From assembly GCA_004292515.1 (NCBI GenBank), contig RDXB01000037.1:1-63196 (forward strand): DNA of 63,196 nucleotides. Direction: 5' to 3'. Shown here piece after piece: positions 79 through 5,992 of the stretch; position 1 is the first letter of the stretch, and each line of letters begins with the position of its first letter. Both the position numbers and the translations under genes were made by a program. The notes beneath the pieces were generated by a model that was given only the letters and a program-made list of their open reading frames with translations, did no database searches and was not told the DNA's origin. This DNA is from Oscillatoriales cyanobacterium (GTDB taxonomy: Bacteria; Cyanobacteriota; Cyanobacteriia; CACIAM-69d).

Positions 79-247
79 TTGTTAGTGAATTAGTGACGGC
101 TAACCAATGTCACTGCGGTTCATGAACCCTTGCATTTTCCATGACCACCCCCGCAACTTCTGATAACCATGCTAAACATGATGGGCAATGGACGATGTTG
201 CTCCACCGCACTCGTCCATCCACTGTGCTGCGAGGAGCGATTGCGTT

Positions 248-1975
248 GTGAGCCGAGACTGGACTTGTCCGGGGACAAATCCTGAGAATCCCCACCCACC
301 CGAGTTAGTGACGGGCACTGACTGCCCCCTCTGTGGGATGTCGCGAGAAGCAGCCCTGAAGGGGCCGATACCCCCCCCGCCTCCTAAGTCTCCTGGCTCT
401 GGCCCAGTCACCCAAATCGATCCTTACAACCAACCATCAAAACGATCAAAAGGGAATCGTTGGCCTTGGCTGATCGTTCCGGTTCTGGTAGCTGCGGGGG
501 CAATGACTCCCCTCATACTCGGCCGTACTGGAGATCCTCCTAAAACCTGCCCAACGGGTCAAGCCTTGGTGAATGGCCAATGCCAGACCGGTGTATCACC
601 ACCGCCCTTCCCGCCAGAGTTGATCAGTGGACTCTCCGTTCCTAGTGCCAATCCCACCCCTGGGACTGCCCCCATCGGCCCCCTCAAACGGTTGTTTAGG
701 GAGGAGAAGCCCGATGCCGATCGCGGGGTGCAACTCTTTAATCAGACCAAATTTGCTGAAGCGCTCGAAGCTTTCACCAAAGCGGCCAACGGCGACCCAA
801 AAGATGCCGAAATCTTAATTTACAAAAACAACGCCCTGGCTCGCACCGCCACAAAGCCGCCGTTTCGGATTGCGGTGATTGTGCCCGCTATCCAAAATGA
901 CGAAGTGGCCATGGAAATGTTGAGAGGGGTGGCCCAGGCCCAAGAACGGTTCAACAAACAAGGGGGACTGAATGGCCGCTATCTCGACTTGATTTTGGCG
1001 ACCGATAAAAATGATCCCGCCTTGGGAGAGCAAGTGGCTCAGTTTTTGAGCACTATTCCCGATGTGTTGGCGGTTGTTGGTCACAACATCAGCAGTGTCA
1101 CTGAGAAGGTGCTGCCCATCTATGAAAAAGCGGGGATGCCGGTGATTTCACCCACCAGCACTAGCACCGATCTCAAGAGCAACACCTTCTTCCGCACCGT
1201 GCCGAGCGATGAAGCGACGGGCAATCGATTGGTGGCCTATTTAGTAAGCCAAAAAGTCACCCGAGTGGCCTTGGTATACGATGCCGATCGCTACAGTCAA
1301 AGTCTGTTGAGGGTGGTGAAACCGGAACTGGACGCAGCTCAAGTAACAGTGGTGCGCGGCATTGAATTGACAATCGCTAATTTTGATCCCAATGCAGAAA
1401 TCGCAACGCTGAATAACCAGCCGGAGATCGATCGCCCGGAAGTGATTGTCTTGATCTCAGGTCAAAAAAATCAGTCTGTGGCGAACCAATTGATGAAAGC
1501 GAATGCCCAACTACCGACCGATCGACGCTTTCGATTTGTTGGCAGCGACGCGCTCTATGATTCCGAAACATTGACGATCGGGACGGATGTGGTGAAGGGC
1601 TTGATTTTGGCTGTGCCTTGGGCGCGGGACAGTGCCTCAGCGGAGCAATTTACAGAGCGAGTGCGCGCCCTGTGGAAAGGCGACGTGGGCTGGCGAACGG
1701 CCACTTCCTACGATGCCCTGCAAGCGCTGATTCAATCCCTGTCGGATCAGGCGAACCGTGCTTCAATCCTGGCAGCGCTCCAGCAAGTCAACCTGCCGCC
1801 CACAGAAACCTCGGGAGACTCCCTCGCCTTCACCAATGGCGATCGGGCTGGGGAAGCGGTGTTGGTGGAAGCGACCAATCGCCCATCCTGTGGGCAAGTG
1901 GCTGGCACGGGCATGGCCTTTTGCTTGCTGCGGGAGGGGCGATCGCCCAAATCCAGCCCCAGTCCTACGCCCTAG
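248..1975 (+). CDS. membrane receptor, cysteine motif + TM + LivK-like ligand-binding domain (copy 1)
   Basis: Predicted 575-residue protein from GTG at 248. An upstream in-frame ATG (188) is rejected because the paralogue starts at the matching GTG and GGAG at 233-236 is well placed. Residues 1-30 carry a short motif (C7, C26, C29; CPLCGM) like half of a zinc ribbon. A membrane span lies near 72-92, followed by a small CPTGQ..NGQC motif, a TPR-like helical pair, then a Peripla_BP_6/branched-chain amino-acid receptor fold (RIAVIVP, GHNISSVT, PTSTSTDL, FFRTVPSD). The topology suggests a cytosolic cysteine motif and an extracytoplasmic ligand domain. No permease or ATPase lies nearby, so sensing rather than transport is inferred. 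The ligand is unknown. Confidence 0.8.
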   Translation: MSRDWTCPGTNPENPHPPELVTGTDCPLCGMSREAALKGPIPPPPPKSPGSGPVTQIDPYNQPSKRSKGNRWPWLIVPVLVAAGAMTPLILGRTGDPPKTCPTGQALVNGQCQTGVSPPPFPPELISGLSVPSANPTPGTAPIGPLKRLFREEKPDADRGVQLFNQTKFAEALEAFTKAANGDPKDAEILIYKNNALARTATKPPFRIAVIVPAIQNDEVAMEMLRGVAQAQERFNKQGGLNGRYLDLILATDKNDPALGEQVAQFLSTIPDVLAVVGHNISSVTEKVLPIYEKAGMPVISPTSTSTDLKSNTFFRTVPSDEATGNRLVAYLVSQKVTRVALVYDADRYSQSLLRVVKPELDAAQVTVVRGIELTIANFDPNAEIATLNNQPEIDRPEVIVLISGQKNQSVANQLMKANAQLPTDRRFRFVGSDALYDSETLTIGTDVVKGLILAVPWARDSASAEQFTERVRALWKGDVGWRTATSYDALQALIQSLSDQANRASILAALQQVNLPPTETSGDSLAFTNGDRAGEAVLVEATNRPSCGQVAGTGMAFCLLREGRSPKSSPSPTP

Positions 1976-2066
1976 CACTGAGGGTGACCGATTCTTGGGC
2001 TAGCTGATCGCTCACTAGGGCCTGGTTGCGCTGGGCCCGATCGGGCTGGGAATTGAGGGCGATCGC
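1976..2066 (-). pseudogene. relic of the C-terminus of the TPR gene
   Basis: Read on the minus strand, this stretch translates as AIALNSQPDRAQRNQALVSD, then QLAQESVTLSA. It matches the C-terminus of the intact TPR protein at 4004-5677 (AIALNPQHDRAQRNQALVSD, then RLAQEAATLSA). Nucleotide identity over about 90 bp is roughly 80 percent by eye. Nothing else of the TPR gene is found here. It is a by-product of the tandem duplication and shows that receptor and TPR gene were already convergent neighbours before it. Confidence 0.8.
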
Positions 2067-2178
2067 AGCCCGCCAACTCGTGCTGACCAATCTCGCAATT
2101 ATGCTAAGTATGATCAACAAAGGCGATGTAGCTCAACTGCATCAGTCCATTCACTGTGCTGCGCGGAGAGATTGAATT

Positions 2179-4014
2179 GTGAGCCGAGACTGGACTTGCC
2201 CAGGGACTAATCCTGAGAATCCCCATCAGCCAGCCCCCATGACAGGGCCCGATTGCACCATTTGTGGGATGTCACGGGAGGAGGCCCTGAGCCAGTCTTC
2301 CCCCATTCACCGGAACCAGCCAACTCCATCGCCATCGAAATCGCCATCGAACTCCTCTGGCCCAGTTACGCAACTCGACCTCAAACCCTATGACCAGCCC
2401 ACCCAGCTCGACCCTACTCCCCTGCGTCCGCCCGGCAGTTGGCCCATTTGGCTCATTCTGATTCCAGCCATGATTGCCATAGGCGGGGTGATTGCGTTTC
2501 TCACTAGCCAGAATAAAACCCCAGAAATTGCCTGTTCTGAGGGGCAATCACTGGTCGATGGTCGCTGTGAACCAGCAGTCCAACCGCCCTCGATCGCGAG
2601 TCAAGTCAGCGGCTTGGGTGCACCCAGTTCGGGGACTCAGGCCACCGGCCTGACGATCGGCAATGGTGGCAGCAGCGGCGGGAGTAGTGGTGGGAGTAGT
2701 GGTGGGAGCTGGAGTGTGCAGCGGTTTTATAACGATGAACCCAACCAGGATGCTGATGATGGCATCCGGTTTCTCAATCAGCAGCAGTTTCCCGAAGCCC
2801 TAGAAGCGCTGCAAAAAGCTGTTGCTGGGGAGCCAAAAAATCCCGAACTTTTGATTTATCAAAACAACGCTCTTGCTCGCACTCGGGCCACCGCAGCCAT
2901 GCCAACTTTCCGTGTGGCAGTGGTTGTGCCCGCCGGGAAATCTAAGGAAGCGGCGATCGAAATCCTGCGGGGAGTTGCCCAGTCACAAGCCGAATTCAAT
3001 AAGGCGGGTGGGCTGAATGGTCGCTATCTCGAATTGGTTTTGGCAACCGATCGCAATGATCCCCAAGAGGCCAAGGTGCTTGCTCAGACCCTCGTGGCTC
3101 GACCCGATCTATTGGCCGTTCTTGGTCACAACATCAGCAGCGTCACTCAGGTTGTGCTGCCCATTTATGAAGCGGCTGGTGTGGCCCTCGTTTCTTCAAC
3201 CAGCACCAGCATTGACCTCAAGAGTAAAACCTTTTTCCGCACGGTTCCCAGTGACCGCACAACGGGGATCAAGATTGTTAACTACTTGGCCAGTCAAGCG
3301 GTGAAACAGGTGGGCGTGGTTCACGACCAAGACAACTACAGCCAAAGCTTGCTGAATGTGGTGACCACAGGATTGGATGCGGCCCAAATTCGGATTGTGC
3401 AAAAGGTGGATTTGACGATGCCCAATTTTGATGCGAGTCAAATGGTTGATGCGTTGAATCGTGAACCGGCTGGCAGTCGCCCGGAAATGTTGGTGCTGAT
3501 TCCCGGCCAGAAAAATCGATCGGTGGTGCATCAGATTTTGCGGGCCAATGCCCAGCGCCAACAACGCTTTCGCATGATTGGCGGGGAAACACTCTACAAC
3601 GCAGAAACGCTGGCGATCGGGACGGATGCGATTCAGGGGTTGATTTTGGCTGTGCCCTGGGCGCGGGATAGTGCCAAGGCAGTGCAGTTCACCGAGCGGG
3701 CAAGGGCCCAGTGGAAAGGTGATGTGGGCTGGCGGGTCGCCACTTCCTTCGATGCAATGCAGGCCTTGATTAAGGCCCTGTCACCGCAAGCCGATCGCCA
3801 GTCGGTTTTAGCGGATCTCCAGCGACTCAACCTGTCGCCCGATCAGACGGCGGGAGATTCCCTGGCCTTCACTAATGGCGATCGGGCTGGGGAAGCGGTG
3901 CTGGTGGAAGCAACCAATCGTCCCTCCTGTGGGCAAGTGGCTGGCACGGGCATGGCGTTTTGCTTGCTGCGGGAGGGGCGATCGCCAAAATCTAGCGCTA
4001 GCTCTACGCCCTAG
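2179..4014 (+). CDS. membrane receptor, cysteine motif + TM + LivK-like domain (copy 2)
   Basis: Paralogue of the preceding gene with the same order: N-terminal SRDWTCPGTNPENPH and CTICGM motif, proline-rich linker, membrane span (WPIWLILIPAMIAIGGVIAF), CSEG..VDGRC motif, a Gly/Ser-rich linker of GGSS repeats absent from copy 1, a TPR-like helix pair, then the Peripla_BP_6-type domain. It starts at GTG 2179 after GGAGAG. The last 50 codons are nearly identical in DNA to copy 1 while the linkers differ, which suggests recent conversion. Its 3' end overlaps the convergent TPR gene by 11 bp. Ligand and partner are unknown; a role with the TPR protein is only suggested by position. Confidence 0.8.
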   Translation: MSRDWTCPGTNPENPHQPAPMTGPDCTICGMSREEALSQSSPIHRNQPTPSPSKSPSNSSGPVTQLDLKPYDQPTQLDPTPLRPPGSWPIWLILIPAMIAIGGVIAFLTSQNKTPEIACSEGQSLVDGRCEPAVQPPSIASQVSGLGAPSSGTQATGLTIGNGGSSGGSSGGSSGGSWSVQRFYNDEPNQDADDGIRFLNQQQFPEALEALQKAVAGEPKNPELLIYQNNALARTRATAAMPTFRVAVVVPAGKSKEAAIEILRGVAQSQAEFNKAGGLNGRYLELVLATDRNDPQEAKVLAQTLVARPDLLAVLGHNISSVTQVVLPIYEAAGVALVSSTSTSIDLKSKTFFRTVPSDRTTGIKIVNYLASQAVKQVGVVHDQDNYSQSLLNVVTTGLDAAQIRIVQKVDLTMPNFDASQMVDALNREPAGSRPEMLVLIPGQKNRSVVHQILRANAQRQQRFRMIGGETLYNAETLAIGTDAIQGLILAVPWARDSAKAVQFTERARAQWKGDVGWRVATSFDAMQALIKALSPQADRQSVLADLQRLNLSPDQTAGDSLAFTNGDRAGEAVLVEATNRPSCGQVAGTGMAFCLLREGRSPKSSASSTP

Positions 4015-5677
4015 AACTACTAGCACTAAGGGTGGCTGCTTCCTGGGCTAGGCGATCGCTGACGAGGGCTTGGTTGCGCTGGGCCCGATCGTGTTGGGGA
4101 TTGAGGGCGATCGCCTGGTGATAGGAGTCGATCGCCTCGGGGAAGCAGTCAAGCCGCACCAGCACATTGCCCCGGCTGTACCAAACTTCGGGATCTTGCC
4201 GATCGAGGTCGATCGCCCGATCGTAGCTGCTGAGGGCGGCGGCAAAGTTGCCGAGCTGCGTCAGGATAATGCCGCGATTGTGCCAAGCGCTGGCGTTTTG
4301 GTCGTTGAGTTCGATCGCCCGATCGTAGGCTTGCAGGGCTTCCTGGGGTCGTTGCAACCGCGCGAGGGCATTGGCCCGGTTATACCAAGCTTCGTGGCTG
4401 GCCGGATTCAGGGAAATGGCTTGGTTATAGGCCTGCAAGGCCGGTTCGATTTGTTGCAGCTTGCTCAAGATCAAGCCCTGATGCAGCCACAGATCGGGAT
4501 TGTTGGGATTCAAGCCGATCGCCTGTTGGTAGGAAGCGGCGGCTTCTTCAAACTTGCCCAGCCGCATCAACACCAGCCCCCGGTTGTGCCAGCTTTCGTA
4601 GCTGTCGGGCTTCAGGCGCACGGCTCGATCGTAGGCAGCGATCGCGGCGGGATAGCGTTGCAGCGCCTCTAGCACCACCCCTTTGCCCCACCAAGCGGCG
4701 TAGCAGTCCGGCTGTTGATCGATCGCCTTGTCATATTCCGCCAAGGCCCCTTCAGGATCACCACTCCGAAACCGTTGTTCCGCGCGATCGGCAATATTAT
4801 CAGCACTGGCAGCCAAGGAGCCTGTCGGCACAGATTGGATCGTCATCTGCTGCATTTGCAACGACACCAACTGTTCCACTAAGGTGCGTAATTCCTGTTG
4901 AATTTGGGGCTGAATTAGCCCGAGCAATTCCTGGGGTGCTTTTTGGGTGAAGTCTTGCAGCAGCTTGGCTTTTTGGCGTTCGGCTTGCCCGGCCAAGATT
5001 TGCATATTGGAGATAAATTCTTTTTCCAGCTCGGCAATTTGGTGGCGGGAGACGCGGCGATCGCCCGCCAGTTTGTCTTGAAACTGGCTGAGTTCTTGGT
5101 CGGCCGCTGTTTTCACCGCTGCCACATGGGTTTCCAGCTCCGCAATCAAGGCCGAGGCCGACTCCTTGGTGCGCTCCACTTGGGCCTGGAGTTCCTGCAA
5201 ACTGCGGTTGGCTTGGGTGGTGGCCCCTTTGATCCGCCGATCGAGGTCGCCCACATCTTTTAAACTGCGGCGCACGGACTGCACCAGGTGATTCACCACC
5301 CGCCGCCGACCCAACCAGAGGCCCGCCGTCGTGGCCAAGGGAGCCAGCCCAAAGGCAATCAGCAACCAACTGAGGCCGCCCACCACGCGATCGAGTCCCA
5401 CATCAGCGGTGGGGTTAGCCACGCTGGCCTGGGCCACTTGCTGGCTGGGGTCAGCCGATTCCACGCCAGCGATCGGGGCTTCCGGTTGGGCCAGGCTGGC
5501 ACAGGCGCGATCGGGCTGACCCGCTTGGTTGGTGGGGCAGGGAGTGATCGAGGGGGCCGCGGCCTGGGCCGAATCACTGTTGAGCAATGCGGGGCCGGCG
5601 ATCGCCAAAGCCGGAATCAGGGCCGCCGCCCAACGGCGATCGGGCTTTGCACCGAAATTGCTGCGGGAAGAACTCAT
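4004..5677 (-). CDS. secreted or membrane-anchored coiled-coil TPR protein
   Basis: 557 residues. The N-terminus has a signal-like hydrophobic stretch ending in AQAAA near residue 40. A second membrane span lies near 98-123 (LLIAFGLAPLATTAGLWLG). A long charged region at about 130-270 (KTAADQELSQFQDK, AELEKEFIS) looks like coiled coil. From about 290 to 545 come at least seven TPR units of the W-Y-NRG..L..L..F.EA type. TPR arrays usually hold protein partners; no catalytic motif is seen. It converges on the duplicated receptor genes, and a relic of its 3' end lies between them, so the association is old. Function is unknown. Confidence 0.8.
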   Translation of the reverse strand: MSSSRSNFGAKPDRRWAAALIPALAIAGPALLNSDSAQAAAPSITPCPTNQAGQPDRACASLAQPEAPIAGVESADPSQQVAQASVANPTADVGLDRVVGGLSWLLIAFGLAPLATTAGLWLGRRRVVNHLVQSVRRSLKDVGDLDRRIKGATTQANRSLQELQAQVERTKESASALIAELETHVAAVKTAADQELSQFQDKLAGDRRVSRHQIAELEKEFISNMQILAGQAERQKAKLLQDFTQKAPQELLGLIQPQIQQELRTLVEQLVSLQMQQMTIQSVPTGSLAASADNIADRAEQRFRSGDPEGALAEYDKAIDQQPDCYAAWWGKGVVLEALQRYPAAIAAYDRAVRLKPDSYESWHNRGLVLMRLGKFEEAAASYQQAIGLNPNNPDLWLHQGLILSKLQQIEPALQAYNQAISLNPASHEAWYNRANALARLQRPQEALQAYDRAIELNDQNASAWHNRGIILTQLGNFAAALSSYDRAIDLDRQDPEVWYSRGNVLVRLDCFPEAIDSYHQAIALNPQHDRAQRNQALVSDRLAQEAATLSASSSRA

Positions 5678-5811: not shown

Positions 5812-5992
5812 AAACTGAAACGGTTGGTTTCCCATGCCCCAATCGTCGTCACAAGGGGCTGAAGCCCCTTGCTGATCCACAATCCGCTAGCGGCGGAATC
5901 AGGGTTCTAGGCGATTTAACGATACTCCCTCGGCCCCTTGCTGCTCCACGATTCGCTAGCGGCGGAATCAGGGTTTCAGGCTCATTGACGAT
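5812..5992. repeat. dispersed element, type 1 (degenerate, partly doubled)
   Basis: CTGAAACGGTTGGTTT and CAAGGGGCTGAAGCCCCTTG (5852-5871) followed by CGCTAGCGGCGGAATCAGGG match the elements at 9405-9550 and 49499-49749. The CGCTAGCGGCGGAATCAGGG block occurs twice (about 5885 and 5953). The right end, TTGACGA, lies a few bases from the stop codon of the site-2 protease gene. Confidence 0.7.

Follow-up and report, generated by a model that had tools for sequence, protein, structure and literature searches.

Organisation of the locus

The window analysed here, 63,196 bases in length, is one whole contig (C60) of a 3.98-Mb genome from a Limnothrix-like cyanobacterium (G000). It carries two receptor genes arranged head to tail and followed by a convergent TPR gene, whose 3′ end overlaps that of receptor copy 2 by 11 nt. 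A short relic of the TPR gene lies between the receptors. The features are as follows:

169–247, plus strand: 5′ leader of receptor copy 1, homologous to 2101–2178 (63/77 aligned sites identical, two single-base indels)
248–1975, plus strand: receptor copy 1, most likely start GTG at 248, with a Peripla_BP_6 domain (7.5e-37)
1829–1975, plus strand: 3′ end of receptor copy 1, a putative recombinant tract unusually close to copy 2, left edge at ~1776–1835
1972–2066, minus strand: relic of the C-terminus of the TPR gene, 31 codons in frame, ending on the HIP1 octamer GCGATCGC at 2059–2066
2067–2100, no strand: junction spacer of 34 nt, without assigned origin
2101–2178, plus strand: 5′ leader of receptor copy 2, aligned with the leader of copy 1
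2179–4014, plus strand: receptor copy 2, most likely start GTG at 2179, with a Peripla_BP_6 domain (1.4e-30) preceded by a weak TPR-like stretch
4004–5677, minus strand: intact TPR gene (557 aa), convergent with receptor copy 2; 4020–4114 is the source of the relic

Alignment of 169–2066 with 2101–4114 (1862 aligned sites, 71% identity) revealed two head-to-tail units whose homology reaches beyond the receptor gene, so that the repeat unit is made up of leader, receptor and TPR tail. An earlier note on this DNA had proposed that a duplication copied the receptor together with the tail of the TPR gene, and had suggested a search for an extended match between the two units; the match found has almost exactly the limits given there. 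The junction spacer showed no significant match to DNA upstream of copy 1 (the match was equalled in 124/1000 shuffles). HIP1 octamers occur at 135 sites in the window (2.1 per kb), and at this density the octamer at the end of the relic, seen at one junction, can be a coincidence. Between the TPR gene and an M50 peptidase gene, at 5864–5992, are two 60-nt direct repeats that are 85% identical and 69 nt apart.

Receptor proteins

The two receptor proteins are 61% identical and both score well above the Pfam cut-off for Peripla_BP_6 (128.2 bits for copy 1 and 107.6 for copy 2; cut-off 31.7). Copy 1 is built from a short Cys-containing N-terminus, one hydrophobic segment, a linker and the periplasmic-binding-protein domain, the Cys motif and hydrophobic segment having been read by eye; both are seen in copy 2 as well. 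In sequence the proteins resemble Leu/Ile/Val-binding proteins of LivJ type (PDB 1z15, 2liv). They are not named LivJ here, because the NCBIfam transporter models match them much too weakly (84.9 and 102.6 bits, where the cut-off for the binding protein of a LivJ-type amino-acid ABC transporter is 477). The domain leads naturally to the prediction that both are extracytoplasmic small-molecule receptors. The Peripla_BP_6 domain and the LivJ-type similarity are shared with membrane-anchored cyanobacterial receptors of this kind, but hardly any of the relatives found, if any, can be aligned over the N-terminal ~140–180 residues.

The true starts are most likely GTG at 248 and 2179, since copy 2 has an in-frame TGA (2173–2175) and the two leaders differ by single-base indels. 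The ATG at 188 in the open reading frame call for copy 1 is unsupported as a start; by homology with copy 2, translation begins most likely at GTG 248.

Origin of the relic

Positions 1972–2066 match 4020–4114, within the TPR gene, at 82/95 sites (86% identity) with no gaps. In a search of the whole genome the TPR tail was matched with E = 3.6e-26 and the next best hit had E = 0.05; no other strong match was present, only short chance ones. Read on the minus strand the relic gives AIALNSQPDRAQRNQALVSDQLAQESVTLSARA followed by a stop, against AIALNPQHDRAQRNQALVSDRLAQEAATLSASSSRA followed by a stop in the TPR gene. The same residue is found in 26 of the 31 aligned codons, beyond which is a 9-nt in-frame deletion, and the relic has neither start codon nor gene body. 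The remnant of a TPR C-terminus that the earlier note had placed between the receptor paralogues is thus borne out, at 31 codons rather than 30, as is its readable amino-acid similarity.

Orthologues of the TPR gene are present in two Limnothrix genomes (G001 and G002; 78% identity), and when these serve as outgroup, each of the six polarisable differences in five amino-acid-changing codons (6/6) falls on the relic branch, while both polarisable silent changes in the last 31 codons (2/2) fall on the branch of the intact TPR gene. This makes the relic a derived copy of the TPR C-terminus, free of constraint, in agreement with its proposed descent from that gene. Over 93 sites the relic and the intact tail agree at 80, whereas the intact tail and its G001 orthologue agree at 72; since the relic is nearer to the intact tail than the latter is to G001, the sequence it now has was probably derived from the TPR gene after divergence from the G001 lineage, although the numbers are small.

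Folding of the relic, the TPR tail and the leaders as RNA gave stabilities no higher than those of shuffled sequences (z from −0.06 to −0.85), leaving a structured-RNA or terminator function without support, and scans for promoters and terminators yielded no more sites than shuffles. Most likely the relic has no function, and it would be expected to form just the 3′ end of the receptor 1 transcript.

Age mosaic in the receptor pair

Silent differences (Nei-Gojobori, uncorrected) are unevenly distributed along the repeat. For the receptor body, taken as the first 523 aligned codons, they amount to 68%. The last 48 receptor codons give 26% (~39 silent sites, with a boundary picked after the alignment had been viewed), and the relic compared with the TPR tail gives 32% (~24 silent sites). 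Six pairs of orthologues from G000 and G001 differ at 46–64% of silent sites, pairs with wrong-frame or over-extended open reading frames having been excluded. The body value is inflated by the linker (~421–643), which aligns poorly; the ligand-binding domain alone (854–1828) differs at ~63%, within the upper part of the range for congeneric orthologues. The safe statement is accordingly that, judged by silent sites, the receptor bodies go back about to the split within the genus or to a time before it, and that the receptor tail and relic are younger.

The contrast between tail and body (26% vs 68%) is that expected of a gene-conversion tract, with silent sites significantly closer than in the rest of the pair. 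A change-point test on silent identity (10/5000 shuffles) and the position at the receptor 3′ end of the longest identical run (32 nt; 9/2000 shuffles) agree with this. When silent sites were split into three segments, the strongest break fell at the poorly aligned linker (421–643), and this split is not counted as evidence on the ends. A closeness equal to that of the tail is also seen in the first 15 receptor codons (11/14 third positions identical). The leaders (169–247 and 2101–2178) are 82% identical, far closer than silent sites of the body, and may be either homogenised or functionally constrained.

An unconstrained relic that is less diverged than the silent sites of the receptor beside it makes the pair a mosaic, for which a later recombination step is needed. 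The tandem duplication put forward in the earlier note consequently stands as regards unit structure and the origin of the relic, but not as a single undisturbed event, as the relic and the receptor 3′ end are far younger than the bodies.

Receptor and TPR genes in other genomes

In both G001 and G002 the convergent neighbour of the TPR gene is a different one, which from its sequence we take to be cobH-like; the protein used for comparison was the C-terminal 209 residues of an open reading frame (L049 4225–5349) that starts in an overlapping frame. Neither neighbour arrangement is present in the outgroups G003 and G004. No receptor orthologue was found in the congeners G001 and G002, nor beside the TPR gene in any of five other genomes of the order, and no single-copy or intermediate state was found among these five or among 388 genomes of the class. 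A receptor-based scan of genome contigs gave no confirmed relative, and plasmid records gave no match. In the 388 genomes the best relatives of receptor 2 are ~44% identical, and in a tree of 45 receptors the two copies are sisters with full support on a long stem. Within the set of genomes compared, a receptor gene and the TPR gene stand as convergent neighbours in this lineage alone.

The cobH-like gene of G000 itself lies on another contig (C39:9957–10583, L094), where it retains the neighbours on its left but faces a different convergent gene on its right, again with an overlap of 4 nt. Some distant receptor relatives (L064, L065 and L066, in G288, G362 and G356) also occur as close pairs, ~2.7 kb apart, with longer frames (~900–1050 aa).

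Proposed history of the repeat

The locus probably arose by an old tandem duplication followed by partial homogenisation through gene conversion or unequal crossing-over, an order of events and a mechanism that we infer. In the lineage of the window, ~1.9–2.0 kb comprising the leader, the receptor and the last ~31 or more TPR codons would have been duplicated in tandem, placing a copy of the TPR tail, devoid of start and body, between the receptors as a non-coding relic. On the present evidence the receptor and TPR gene already stood next to each other in convergent orientation at the time of the copying of the tail, as the earlier note had argued. The receptor bodies would then have diverged, and later homologous recombination between the units, either gene conversion or unequal crossing-over via a transient third copy, would have homogenised the outer ends, namely the last ~50 receptor codons and the TPR tail, and probably also the leader and first ~15 codons. 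The relic would look younger than its flanking genes because the outer ends were homogenised later. In prokaryotes, gene conversion and unequal recombination are established ways in which paralogues become homogenised (PMC6053082).

The same mosaic could have been produced in the opposite order, by a young duplication after the split from other Limnothrix and subsequent homologous recombination in which a divergent allele of another strain took the place of the middle ~1.5 kb in one receptor. This alternative, which shares the TPR-gene origin of the relic with the history proposed above and differs from it in the order of events, is possible, at a clearly lower probability. It needs one duplication and one replacement, and it suits the old middle and the similarly low divergence of the relic and both ends (26%, 32% and 11/14 third positions). 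However, no donor was found among the 388 genomes of the class, where the best match is the one at ~44%; each body has the other as its closest relative, and a donor allele about as distant as the congeners compared, or more so, would be required.

A single tandem duplication of receptor and TPR tail with nothing after it, the relic being merely slower to diverge, fits the repeat structure exactly and is nevertheless very unlikely. An unconstrained relic of the same age as the bodies is expected to be ~36–50% identical to its source, against the 82/95 sites seen (P about 1e-13 at 50%). Protein-level constraint fails to explain this closeness, because it is the relic that took the amino-acid changes and the intact gene none.

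Also very unlikely is an origin of the relic outside the original duplication, in which one-ended recombination started within the receptor 2 3′ end, continued into the TPR tail and left a copy of this tail behind receptor 1 of an older tandem pair. The equal apparent age of the relic and receptor 3′ end, both younger than the bodies, would follow, but the join must then have fallen very close to the copy 2 leader, with just 34 nt left over, a spacer for which tandem duplication accounts without added assumptions. It is highly improbable that the relic has been kept or restored repeatedly, with the near-identical ends serving as a recombination track in a cassette-like locus for receptor diversification that combines a uniform leader and C-terminus with a diversifying ligand-binding body.

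Relation to known processes

The locus illustrates known processes cleanly, and no new mechanism follows from it. As a worked case it shows clearly how events in a tandem duplication in bacteria can be dated from the relic at the junction. It also calls for caution, since the age read from a relic of this kind may be that of later recombination and not of the duplication. As in other tandem duplications that include part of a neighbouring gene, the boundary of the unit lies inside the neighbour and the junction copy is truncated and unconstrained; there is no essential difference from these, the junction here abutting a HIP1 octamer. The pattern of one part of a pair being far closer at silent sites is also that of concerted evolution or gene conversion in bacterial paralogues (tuf, psbA and others; PMC6053082). 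Unlike in those cases, the effect is confined here to the ends, with a ligand-binding body that remains divergent and a tract that takes in the non-coding DNA of the relic.
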